DNA from: Prevotella sp. | GTDB lineage: Bacteria > Bacteroidota > Bacteroidia > Bacteroidales > Dysgonomonadaceae | Reading direction: 5' to 3' | Assembly: GCA_031285625.1 (NCBI GenBank) | Contig: JAITVV010000093.1 | Location: 124,001-188,000, forward strand | DNA: 64,000 bases | Part shown: in pieces, positions 15,331-18,750 of the stretch | How positions within the stretch are numbered: position 1 is the stretch's first letter | How the letters are laid out: every line of letters begins with the position of its first letter | Position numbers and translations under genes: made by a program | Notes under the pieces: model-generated | What the model was told of the DNA's origin: nothing | The model's input: only the letters and a program-made list of their open reading frames with translations | Database searches by the model: none

Positions 15331-16296
15331 ATGATAAAGTTTGAGAAAAAACAGATATTATTGATGTTTATGTTTCTATCATCATTGTACTCATATTCGC
15401 AAAAAGAAACAGTAGCTCCTATCCAGTTCGGAGATATGAACCAATGGATGGTTCGCAAAATATCAGAATCGAGAGTGATCGGAGGTAACACGAAATATCT
15501 ATATGAAATAGCATCCGGAGATACACTGATTGACAAACCGTACAAGAATACAAAATCCCCATGGGCCGTATCTTCTGTGCTGGCAAAAGTTAAAGGAGTA
15601 ACAAAAACCAGTGTTACGGTTTTTCCTGAAAAGAGGGACAACGGCTATTGTGCTCGTTTAGAAACACGTATAGAAGAGTGTAAAGTATTAGGTCTTTTTA
15701 GTATTAAGGTATTAGCAAGTGGTACCATCTTTCTTGGTGAAATGGTTGAGCCTATCACAGGGACAAGCGACCCTCAGAGCAAACTGGTTACGGGTATTCC
15801 ATTTACTCAACGACCCAATGCATTGGAATATGACTATAAGGTCGTAACCGGAGGACTATGCATAAAGGCTACAGGATTCAGTAAGCAATCGCAACTACAG
15901 GAAAAAGATATGGCTGAAACTCAATTGTTATTACAACATAGATGGGAAGATGCCGACGGGAATGTATTTGCAACACGGGTTGCCACAGCATGGGAACGTT
16001 TTGATAAAACAGTCGAAGCCTGGCAAAACAAACATCGTTTATCAATACATTACGGTGATATATCTAAGCAGGCTTACTACCGTTCGTATATGGACCTCAA
16101 AAGCGGGGACAATGCGTATTATACCCGAAATAGTAAAGGTAAAATGGTACCAATACAAGAAATAGGCTGGGCTAATGAAAACGAAGATATTACACACATA
16201 GTCCTACAATTTTCATCCAGTAATGGGGGCGCTTACATAGGAAATACCGACAGCCGCCTTTGGGTAGATAATGTGAAATTGGTATATAACCATTGA
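15331..16296 (+). CDS. PCMD domain-containing exported protein
   Basis: A 321-residue protein with an N-terminal signal peptide (about 6-24, ending SYSQ). The C-terminal part ending SRLWVDNVKLVY and the internal SGTIFLGEM/ARLETR strands match the PCMD family (putative carbohydrate metabolism domain), common in Bacteroidetes and thought to be glycan-associated. It lies 11 bases after the EptA-like gene in the same direction, so it is the third gene of the barrel-EptA unit. It ends only 6 bases from the converging TOPRIM gene, with no terminator between. Biochemical role unknown. Confidence 0.85.
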   Translation: MIKFEKKQILLMFMFLSSLYSYSQKETVAPIQFGDMNQWMVRKISESRVIGGNTKYLYEIASGDTLIDKPYKNTKSPWAVSSVLAKVKGVTKTSVTVFPEKRDNGYCARLETRIEECKVLGLFSIKVLASGTIFLGEMVEPITGTSDPQSKLVTGIPFTQRPNALEYDYKVVTGGLCIKATGFSKQSQLQEKDMAETQLLLQHRWEDADGNVFATRVATAWERFDKTVEAWQNKHRLSIHYGDISKQAYYRSYMDLKSGDNAYYTRNSKGKMVPIQEIGWANENEDITHIVLQFSSSNGGAYIGNTDSRLWVDNVKLVYNH

Positions 16297-16302
16297 CAGA
16301 TA

Positions 16303-17016
16303 TTACTTTTTACCTTTGAAATTTTCTACCACTTTCAATAGTTTATTGAGCGAAGGTATATCATAGCGCAATTGCTGACGGATATTATTGAAATCAAGTT
16401 TGTTAACTACCCGTATAGTTGTGTTATATTTCTTTGTATATGATTTGCCAACAAGCCTGTATATATTATCTAAATCCTTTGCCGGGTGAGTCCTCGACTC
16501 AGAATCTGTTATGTAAGGATCAAAGCCTAGTCTTTCTTTTATGAATCGCCCGGTAAGCCGTTTATCTATTTTCTTGAAGTGATTGGTCTCTGCCATAAAC
16601 CAGGCCTCTATTTCGTGAACAGCTATCACGATATCAAAATAAGGGGCATCATTTTTCAGGTGATGAGGCAAATAACGCAATCCTTTTTCCAGCCTTTCCA
16701 GGTCATCTATCGGGATTGGATACAGATCTCGTAAACCTACAATCATTTCATATCCCTTACTTCTCAGGCTGGATATATTCTCCAGAATCTCAGATTTCAC
16801 CCTATTATCTGAGCCACAATCGAATATTAAAATCTCATACAGAGGATTGCGCGAAAAAGAAGAGTTACGAACAATCTCCTGCTTCGGAATATTTGTCCCT
16901 CCCCTAAACTGTTTTTGGATTATATTTACCTGTGACGAACCGAGGATTTCTTTTATCAAGCGATTTACAAAAATCTGCTCAGTCTGTCCTTCAACAAAAA
17001 AAGCTATCCTTTTCAT
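16303..17016 (-). CDS. TOPRIM/DUF4276-like protein, partner of the AAA ATPase
   Basis: A 237-residue cytoplasmic protein. The N-terminus AFFVEGQTEQIFVNRLI has the hydrophobic strand and EGxTE of TOPRIM domains (probable catalytic Glu9). Two later acidic motifs follow: LIFDCGSDN (about 65) and VGLRDLYPIP (about 95). HEIEAWFMAE (about 136) resembles the E-x-E-A motif of DUF4276 proteins. The ATG at 17016 overlaps the ATPase stop codon as TGATG, so the pair is translationally coupled; a TTG one codon earlier is less likely. TOPRIM proteins paired with ABC-type ATPases (OLD family, PARIS AriA/AriB, AbiL/RloAB) are phage-defence effectors with nuclease or related activity. I infer a similar role here. 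Exact family and activity are unproven. Confidence 0.8.
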   Translation of the reverse strand: MKRIAFFVEGQTEQIFVNRLIKEILGSSQVNIIQKQFRGGTNIPKQEIVRNSSFSRNPLYEILIFDCGSDNRVKSEILENISSLRSKGYEMIVGLRDLYPIPIDDLERLEKGLRYLPHHLKNDAPYFDIVIAVHEIEAWFMAETNHFKKIDKRLTGRFIKERLGFDPYITDSESRTHPAKDLDNIYRLVGKSYTKKYNTTIRVVNKLDFNNIRQQLRYDIPSLNKLLKVVENFKGKK

Positions 17017-18149
17017 CAATAGTTATCTTCATCCATTATGCCAAACCCTTTACGGTAAAAGTCTGTGGTCAGGAAATCAAAGTTGTTAAGTCCCGTATAT
17101 TTAAAGTCTTCGAATGTGTCTTTCGAGTTAGAATAATCATAGAATATCGATTTATTATATTTACGGTCAATAACAGACCAGTAACGAAGAGGTATCTGAT
17201 TCATGATATGCCTGTCATTGGTAGTCATAAAGAATTGCATATTCGAATTGCTTACTTTTTTGATAACGATATCCATCATTTTCTTCGAACTATCAAAATC
17301 AAGCCCTTCTCCCATATCATCAATAAGTAAACAGAACGACATATTACTCAATCGGGCGTAACCTAGCATAATAAAAAGAGATAAGGCTCTGAACATCCCC
17401 TGTGACATCTCACGTTGCGACACTGTATATTCGCCCTCTTCCTCAATGAAAAGGCCATACCAGCCGTCAGTCTCCTGAATATCGATATCTGAAACATAGT
17501 AGCCTAAGTCTTGCATTCCGGAAATTATGTCTGATATAAATTCTTCACCAAATTCTTCTCTACCCTTATGGAAGGTATAAATGAGAACATCCGGATCATC
17601 AATATCCTGATCGTCTCCGTCAATCTGAGTATAATCTTTAACCAATCGATTCTTTTCCAACTGATTAGCAAAAAGATAATTCTTTAATGATTGCCCCCAT
17701 AAGATAAAACTGTCAAAATATGGTTTTCCTTCTGCATTATCCGAAGTGATCACAAGTTCATAATCTTTGGTTTCAAATGATACATTATTATCAGAACTTA
17801 TAAGTATCTTCTTATTCCGATCCAATAAAACCTTACCATTAATAGTTAGTATTTCATCAGTTACAACTCTGTCTTTAAATGACAGAATATACTTATATGA
17901 AGACTCTCCTTCCGTGAACAATAATTCAAAGAACTCACTTGGACTAAACGCCTGTTTCAGATTTATCCTCCCAGATAACAGGTTTGCTATTTCGCGAATA
18001 ACATTCAACGTCCGACTCTTTCCCGATGCATTTTTCCCTATCAATAAATTGATATTATCAAAATAAGCAAAATCATCATCTTTTCCGACAATACTCCATT
18101 CGCGGGGCTCACCTGCATAACGTGTATATTTTAAAGCTCTAATTATCAT
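17016..18149 (-). CDS. AAA/ABC-type ATPase of a putative two-gene defence module
   Basis: A 377-residue soluble ATPase. Walker A GKNASGKS lies at 38-45, a signature-like SQREMSQGMFRALSL at 244-258, Walker B LLIDD at 274-278 with a D-loop GEGLD, and a switch region TTNDRHIMN at 309-317. The order and the insertion between Walker A and signature match OLD/AAA_15/AAA_21-type ATPases rather than transporters. It is the first gene of a two-gene unit with the TOPRIM protein, with a one-base stop/start overlap, and has a -7 box at 18201-18208. By analogy with PARIS and RloA/AbiL systems it may sense infection and control the TOPRIM effector. This is inference. Confidence 0.88.
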   Translation of the reverse strand: MIIRALKYTRYAGEPREWSIVGKDDDFAYFDNINLLIGKNASGKSRTLNVIREIANLLSGRINLKQAFSPSEFFELLFTEGESSYKYILSFKDRVVTDEILTINGKVLLDRNKKILISSDNNVSFETKDYELVITSDNAEGKPYFDSFILWGQSLKNYLFANQLEKNRLVKDYTQIDGDDQDIDDPDVLIYTFHKGREEFGEEFISDIISGMQDLGYYVSDIDIQETDGWYGLFIEEEGEYTVSQREMSQGMFRALSLFIMLGYARLSNMSFCLLIDDMGEGLDFDSSKKMMDIVIKKVSNSNMQFFMTTNDRHIMNQIPLRYWSVIDRKYNKSIFYDYSNSKDTFEDFKYTGLNNFDFLTTDFYRKGFGIMDEDNY

Positions 18150-18492
18150 CTATCTAAGTATTATAATAGAGAATACATTAATTCAGATCTGTTTTCTCTT
18201 CAAATATACACTTTTTATCAGAAAGTCGCATGTTCTAATTTACTTAAGTTTGGTCAATCCTTTTAACAACTTTCTTCGTTCGTTCTATCAAAAAAGTAAC
18301 AAAATAGACAAATAATACACTTTCTACAAATCTCAATAATATATTGATAATAAGAAAATTAAAATTTACATATCACAAAAAGGTGACAAAAGTAACAACT
18401 TTTAGCCTGTTTTAGATTGTTACTTTATCCACTATCTCATTGTGTAAAAGATCGTACAATAAGATAAACTTTATACATAAAGTTATAGATAG
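18150..18492. other. Intergenic region before the transporter operon
   Basis: The 601 bases between the ATPase gene and the adaptor gene contain no credible gene. This first part holds the ATPase promoter box and AT-rich sequence with AAAAAAGTAACAAAA-type motifs (for example at 18292), which also occur at 10684 and, in a variant, at 63885. The rest of the gap holds a palindromic repeat, an enhancer-like palindrome and a sigma-54 promoter, listed separately. Confidence 0.5.
18201..18208 (-). promoter_or_regulatory. Putative -7 promoter box (ATPase-TOPRIM pair)
   Basis: Minus strand reads TATATTTG, matching TAnnTTTG, 52 bases before the ATPase start codon. No clear -33 box. Confidence 0.4.
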
Positions 18493-18573
18493 TTGTCATG
18501 CTGACGAAGGAAGCATCTCGACTCGTTTATCAAGAAAAAAAGCGAAGAGATCCGTCGTTCCTCAGGATGACAA
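18493..18573. repeat. Palindromic intergenic repeat, complete copy
   Basis: About 80 bases with imperfect 26-base terminal inverted repeats: 18494-18519 (TGTCATGCTGACGAAGGAAG...) and 18547-18572 (...CGTTCCTCAGGATGACA). It belongs to the family of short GTCATnCTGA...GAAnnATCTC repeats scattered in many Bacteroidetes genomes. A second copy starts at 63934. It carries no protein gene and may be a non-autonomous element or a structured RNA signal. Confidence 0.8.
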
Positions 18574-18642
18574 AATAAAATAATATGAATTCCAGAATCC
18601 TTTCCAACTTGAATATAGAGAAGAATTTATTTTCGTACAAAG

Positions 18643-18658
18643 TGTCCGATATCGGACA
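18643..18658. promoter_or_regulatory. Enhancer-like perfect palindrome for the NtrC-type regulator
   Basis: TGTCCGATATCGGACA is a perfect 16-bp palindrome. It sits about 60 bases upstream of the -24/-12 promoter, the usual place for binding sites of sigma-54 activators. The regulator encoded at 30116-31468 at the end of the same gene block is the natural candidate to bind it. Binding is inferred. Confidence 0.7.
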
Positions 18659-18703
18659 TTAGATAAGATACATAAATAATTCATAATATGACATTTATAT
18701 ATA

Positions 18704-18719
18704 TGGCATACGACTTGGT
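18704..18719 (+). promoter_or_regulatory. Sigma-54 (-24/-12) promoter of the transporter operon
   Basis: TGGCATACGACTTGGT matches TGGCACnnnnnTTGCW with the correct spacing; GG and TTG are kept, and there are two mismatches (C to T, C to G). It lies 31 bases before the adaptor ATG. The presence of a sigma-54 activator gene downstream supports it. Confidence 0.7.
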
Positions 18720-18750
18720 ATATATCATGTAAACTATTAAATAATTAAAT

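Follow-up and report, generated by a model that had tools for sequence, protein, structure and literature searches.

We found that a two-gene module on the minus strand of the window (the whole 64,000-nucleotide stretch of DNA that was analysed) is kept as a single-copy pair by nearly all genomes of its genus. We propose, at a probability of roughly one half, that it is a split OLD-type system whose role is that of a resident nuclease for surveillance or immunity. On this reading, an ancestor of the lineage took up a defence-type module, which then became part of the core genome, as opposed to a passing defence-island cassette. The first gene (17016..18149) encodes a 377-aa ATPase of ABC/SMC type (AAA_21), and the second (16303..17016) encodes a 237-aa DUF4276 protein, counted from its ATG. 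The two are joined by a TGATG stop/start overlap (17014..17018, minus strand), with one base common to both ORFs. Among 20 same-genus junctions, TGATG occurred 14 times, ATGA twice and TAATG once, and three had no overlap. The gene pair, its predicted folds, its conserved active-site-like residues and its two-gene linkage across phyla are the observations from which we argue.

The two-ORF layout spanning 16303..18149, the overlap and a gap of 6 bases to a converging neighbour are all as the original prediction described them. This neighbour is a PCMD-domain gene (15331-16296), to the left of which lie genes for an EptA-like transferase, an Omp85-domain protein, a metallophosphoesterase and a pyrophosphatase; to the right of the pair, a HlyD-type protein opens a gene set that, from its sequence, reads as an ABC export system. 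This setting agrees with the original description of a pair between an envelope operon and a transporter. Upstream of the ATPase gene, TATATTTG (18201..18208, minus strand) is a weak candidate for a Bacteroidota -7 box that starts 59 bases before the ATPase start; no -33 box was found at the usual spacing from it, both boxes being read against the Bacteroidota consensus. The palindromic repeat noted earlier beside the pair (18494..18572, no strand assigned) is real but forms no part of the system: it lies outside it, in the stretch that separates the pair from the following operon, and is dispersed, with 26 copies of its right arm in the 4.84-Mb genome and none of a reversed control. We rejected a regulatory role for this repeat on account of its 26 genome copies. 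It is a REP-like element. Its palindrome is imperfect, for a repeat search of 18150-18750 found no inverted pair of at least 12.

The ATPase carries the motifs that had been read from it, namely a Walker A (GKNASGKS, with K44), a signature-like stretch (MSQGMFR, with S249 and G251) and a Walker B (LIDDMGEG, with D277-D278 and E281), as well as a conserved TGLNNFDF motif at its C-terminal end. Residues K44, S249, G251, D277, D278 and E281 did not vary in any of the 61 aligned rows, which were hand-picked from the loci with near-duplicates and fragments left out. Against Pfam, the protein matched AAA_21 above the curated cut-off (E 3e-11) and AAA_15 below it (E 0.0014). Its closest curated NCBIfam model was RecF (6e-7, far under that model's cut-off), and its solved relatives by sequence were nine distinct Rad50 sequences. 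Between genomes, dN peaked at residues 60-200 in six of the eight pairs compared and at 200-240 in the remaining two, which might be how a trigger-sensing region would look.

The small protein matched DUF4276 (PF14103) well above the curated cut-off (62.9 bits versus 30.2; E 6e-17), and its predicted model resembles an OLD TOPRIM domain; an OLD-type TOPRIM nuclease fold is predicted for the protein. The original prediction had proposed a TOPRIM fold from an EGxTE-type strand, and both the strand (VEGQTE) and the modelled fold bear it out. The profile comparisons that it called for went partly its way: DUF4276 was confirmed, Pfam OLD-like_TOPRIM (E 0.03) fell under its curated cut-off, as AAA_15 did for the ATPase, and AriB and RloB gave no match at E up to 1. 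No solved relative of the DUF4276 protein was found by sequence at E up to 1. Residues E9, E13, D97, E135, E137 and K195 were identical in 61 of 61 rows, an invariance that for E9, E13, E135 and E137 is partly by construction, because the relatives were found by two peptide patterns, either one being enough: a first that includes E9 and E13 and a second that includes E135 and E137, with D97 and K195 in neither. In order along the chain, E9/E13, D97, E135/E137 and K195 correspond to Bp OLD E400/E404, D455, T506/E508 and K562 as given in PMC6755086; the spacing agrees for the two close pairs (E9/E13 and E135/E137), E135 occupies the place of T506, and the mapping was drawn from order and spacing rather than from residue-level superposition. 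A profile alignment with OLD TOPRIMs (built from 23 of 26 loci) pairs the ExxxE stretch over 37 columns only (E 6.8e-5, probability 63). Of the two-metal catalytic set of OLD TOPRIMs (ExxxE, DxD, TxE and K), the second DxD aspartate had no counterpart: its position held Asp in 0 of 61 rows and Tyr in 52.

By its named relatives the window belongs to Dysgonomonas, although some of the close rows carry 'Prevotella sp.' MAG titles. To describe how the pair is distributed, we use "genus" (Dysgonomonas) and "sister genera" for the genome collection's own groups; NCBI calls several of the sister-genus strains Dysgonomonas too. Of 25 genus genomes, the same 23 contained both the ATPase and the DUF4276 protein, one copy each, intact except for a contig break in one genome (G011) and a stop that splits the ATPase in another (G024). 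Among genomes at least 90% complete, 17 of 18 had the pair, and the two genus genomes in which it was absent are G018 (88% complete, 7% contaminated) and G023 (2.2 Mb). As reference points, rpoB was found in 20 of the 25 (18 of 18 good ones) and a family-core gene for a 299-aa protein in 23. The pair occurred in 31 of 101 family genomes (5 of 15 genera) and, by a one-protein query, in 10 of 295 order genomes, of which two belong to the window's genus and two are weak. The pair is patchy only above the genus level, and the patchy presence among close relatives that the original prediction proposed to look for was not seen.

Retention of a defence family is not telling in itself. A control with the type I family HSDR_N matched in 21 of 25 genus genomes (long-frame matches above 60 bits in 12) and is uninformative, partly against the retention argument; finding a defence family in most genomes is thus unremarkable taken alone, and what carries the argument is the retention of one and the same single-copy orthologue. 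OLD-like_TOPRIM is itself patchy in the order (22 of 149), and the window's own genome has a separate OLD-like TOPRIM protein in a 600-aa frame (G000:C55:18560-18754). Besides the pair's own protein, strong Pfam DUF4276 matches were present in 2 of 25 genus genomes (E 1.7e-53 and 2.4e-44), both of them parts of clear pairs of HEC-01, a PADLOC candidate system (ATPase E 7.6e-131 and 2.9e-128; DUF4276 4.3e-75 and 1.6e-66). One of these, in Dysgonomonas genome G002 (L178, 372-3627), is followed by a type III restriction enzyme.

Phylogeny points to descent within the lineage. The 20 Dysgonomonadaceae rows grouped as one clade (SH-aLRT 100) in a quick tree built from both proteins. When a tree of the pair was set against an rpoB tree for 16 of the 25 genus genomes, 7 of 13 rpoB splits were common to both, including all three with support of 92 or more, while three weak rpoB splits (support 20-35) conflicted with supported splits of the pair tree; with only 3 of 13 splits at that level of support, rpoB is a weak yardstick. 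Median pairwise identity in these 16 genomes was 0.95 for rpoB, 0.77 for DUF4276 and 0.61 for the ATPase, and dN/dS was 0.009-0.026 for rpoB (8 of 8 pairs), 0.019-0.048 for DUF4276 (7 of 8) and 0.035-0.096 for the ATPase (4 of 8, the rest saturated). Inheritance of the pair in the Dysgonomonas lineage is apparently vertical and single-copy.

The place of the pair has shifted within the genus, and the two genes have moved as a unit. We inspected the 30 best loci of the 299-aa gene, which had a match in 93 genomes. All eight sister-genus genomes with the pair share the order mdh (opposite strand), 299-aa gene, ATPase, DUF4276, whereas the 20 genus genomes at the inspected loci have mdh and the 299-aa gene side by side and the pair does not adjoin them. 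The 299-aa protein (L096, 5914-6810, and homologues; L096 is the locus of the pair in the termite-gut strain D. macrotermitis DSM 27370) had no Pfam match at 1e-5, and its gene is core in the family, being present in 93 of 101 genomes and in all 62 of the good ones. Eight genus genomes carry the pair beside, or two ORFs from, a cluster of Na/H-exchanger and TPR genes, the window and five other genus genomes carry it near metallophosphoesterase-pyrophosphatase genes, and the remaining genomes carry it elsewhere. Family f8, also of the Bacteroidales, had DUF4276 in 20 of its 28 genomes, with the f8 rows in one tree group of 13; at 12 loci of this kind, a gene reading as gyrB lies within three genes downstream of the pair, and DNA_gyraseB was found in 9 of 144 neighbours scanned beyond Dysgonomonas. 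A conserved Bacteroidales cluster represented by L131, L140, L141 and others runs from genes of about 1017 aa and 560 aa through the pair to gyrB; the 560-aa gene of L131 had no Pfam match at 1e-5.

Neighbour scans covered genes of 90 to 900 aa within two genes of the pair. The 84 close neighbours at 27 Dysgonomonas loci matched six PADLOC families in nine hits, namely three generic ATPases (mad3/mad8) counted five times, a fragment of the pair's own ATPase, a dGTPase homologue, an amino-acid permease and a single partial match of MzaA type. The three ATPases are probably ABC transporters (ABC_tran was found in 3 of the 84). The MzaA-like match is a 307-aa protein near the pair in a Dysgonomonas-group MAG (L086, 4011-4931) that aligns with C-terminal MzaA residues 403-666 at 3.2e-51, and it is the one possible defence neighbour among the 84. 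The commonest Pfam names were malate dehydrogenase, TPR, Na/H exchanger, L21 and pyrophosphatase, and no defence island was seen around the pair in the genus at these loci. A core pair kept by its relatives with no defence neighbours was the outcome that the original prediction had set against a defence role, and within the genus the data come close to it.

Beyond Dysgonomonas, 144 neighbours matched 151 PADLOC families, and two proteins were traced; in a Parabeggiatoa MAG (L148, 5715-7668), a second HEC-01-like ATPase and a 250-aa gene directly follow the ATPase-DUF4276 pair. An ATPase ORF, whole or partial, lies directly upstream of DUF4276 in 77 of 80 relatives; of the other three, one starts at a contig end and two had no DUF4276 ORF by script. 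The relatives fall in Bacteroidota, Cyanobacteriota, Pseudomonadota and Planctomycetota, with one Bacteroidota row among the cyanobacterial ones. DUF4276 relatives were also present on 13 IMG/VR contigs, with the ATPase upstream in 12. A one-protein query at E up to 0.01 matched none of 50,697 INPHARED phage records and 2 of 72,556 plasmids. A plasmid record (L204, NZ_OY725969.1, 6935-8726) holds a related pair of ATPase and DUF4276-like genes inside a Bacteroides finegoldii polysaccharide (UpxY-type) locus. The cross-phylum relatives and the viral contigs are compatible with a module that spread in the past in the manner of defence systems.

A housekeeping role would account just as well for the retention across the genus and the low dN/dS. 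Such a domesticated pair, an ATP-gated nuclease serving the cell in replication, repair or RNA quality control, would suit the genus-core distribution (23 of 25 genomes), the single possible defence gene among 84 neighbours, the position beside mdh and a family-core gene in the eight sister-genus genomes (among the 30 loci inspected), the proximity of gyrB at 12 loci of a Bacteroidales group with DUF4276 in 20 of 28 f8 genomes, and RecF as closest, though far sub-threshold, NCBIfam model; archaeal Cran1 supplies a precedent (PMC12796447). It sits less easily with the relatives on viral contigs and the cross-phylum patchy tree, with the shifts of position within the genus, and with the pair not being found in 285 of 295 order genomes nor in 10 of 15 family genera, for which reason it is not generally needed. 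We hold this role as a credible second reading, tentatively.

If the pair were an ordinary mobile cassette against phages, like HEC-01, AbiL or PARIS, that would explain the PADLOC similarities (AbiLi 4e-20, AriA 2e-18, HEC-01A 3e-9, HEC-01B 5.6e-12), the patchiness at order level, the HEC-01-like ATPase next door in L148 and the MzaA-like partial neighbour in L086, and PMC3985639 describes Fusobacterium AbiLii as toxic in E. coli. We consider such a cassette unlikely for this lineage in view of the single-copy retention across the genus, whereas clear pairs of HEC-01, with an ATPase E of 3e-128 or better, were found in 2 of the same 25 genomes. The same toxicity, together with two genes that overlap or nearly so, might instead suggest a selfish, toxin-antitoxin-like pair kept because its loss is toxic; however, AbiLi did not neutralise AbiLii in PMC3985639, and whole-genus vertical retention is, in our judgement, unusual for addiction modules, making this explanation highly improbable. 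The anti-phage module originally proposed is supported in its biochemistry, as a prediction (OLD-type ATPase plus DUF4276/TOPRIM), and fails within the genus in its patchiness.

We thus favour the resident split OLD-type system, and for its mechanism we infer complex formation, nuclease activity, ATP gating and a trigger. The ATPase, with its SMC/Rad50/PtuA-type head, would most likely dimerise or oligomerise on ATP, restrain the DUF4276/TOPRIM nuclease and sense the trigger, and the nuclease may then nick or cut nucleic acid (DNA or RNA) using two metals. We also raise, as a rather doubtful extension, that this OLD-type pair, of a divergent DUF4276 lineage, may have become a core cellular system by domestication in two or more separate clades of Bacteroidales (one being Dysgonomonas with its relatives, another the gyrB-linked group). 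If true, bacteria would have their own counterpart to archaeal Cran1, and immunity would have a route into genome maintenance. Discussion of ATPase-TOPRIM pairs usually treats them as phage defences that come and go; the present pair raises the questions of what makes such a nuclease safe and useful enough to keep and whether immunity can turn to housekeeping. The genus-retained lineage beside HEC-01 in 2 of the same 25 genomes offers a natural comparison.

HEC-01 likewise consists of two genes, an ATPase and then DUF4276, of the same Pfam families. The window pair matched it significantly but weakly (HEC-01A E 3e-9, 34 bits, over ATPase residues 30-342; HEC-01B E 5.6e-12, 44 bits), whereas the clear HEC-01 pairs of the genus scored 434 and 426 bits for the ATPase and 250 and 222 bits for DUF4276 (the first value of each being that of G002). 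Because PADLOC gives no curated cut-off, distant membership is possible, and by sequence the window pair would be at most a distant HEC-01 relative; in distribution the two differ, at 2 versus 23 of 25 genus genomes. Searches of literature listings found no publication mentioning DUF4276, none linking HEC-01 with PADLOC, and no title or abstract on this ATPase-DUF4276 pair.

In the OLD family (P2 Old; class 2, including Gabija GajA), ATPase and TOPRIM are fused (classes as in PMC10568477), whereas they are separate genes in the window and at the loci examined, and the second DxD aspartate of OLD nucleases is lacking from the window protein. Cran1, an archaeal OLD-family ATPase plus nickase that is essential in the cell cycle and described as a new OLD class, resembles the pair as an OLD-type ATPase/nuclease kept by its host and is a precedent for a cellular role; it differs in being archaeal and of that new class, and is likened here by description, not sequence (PMC12796447).

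The ATPase also matched PADLOC AriA (2e-18). The PARIS effector AriB is a DUF4435 protein, whereas the effector here is DUF4276, and we rejected PARIS membership as the small protein had no Pfam DUF4435 or PADLOC AriB match at E up to 1. RloAB was rejected likewise (no Pfam RloB match at E up to 1), and so was AbiL, for which AbiLi was significant (4.1e-20) but AbiLii reached only 0.017. PtuA of Septu and retrons and the Rad50/SMC heads share 11-18% sequence identity with the ATPase, and their partner nucleases are not known to be DUF4276 proteins. These profile matches support, as a prediction, the original view of the pair as related to AriAB and AbiL and distinct from both.
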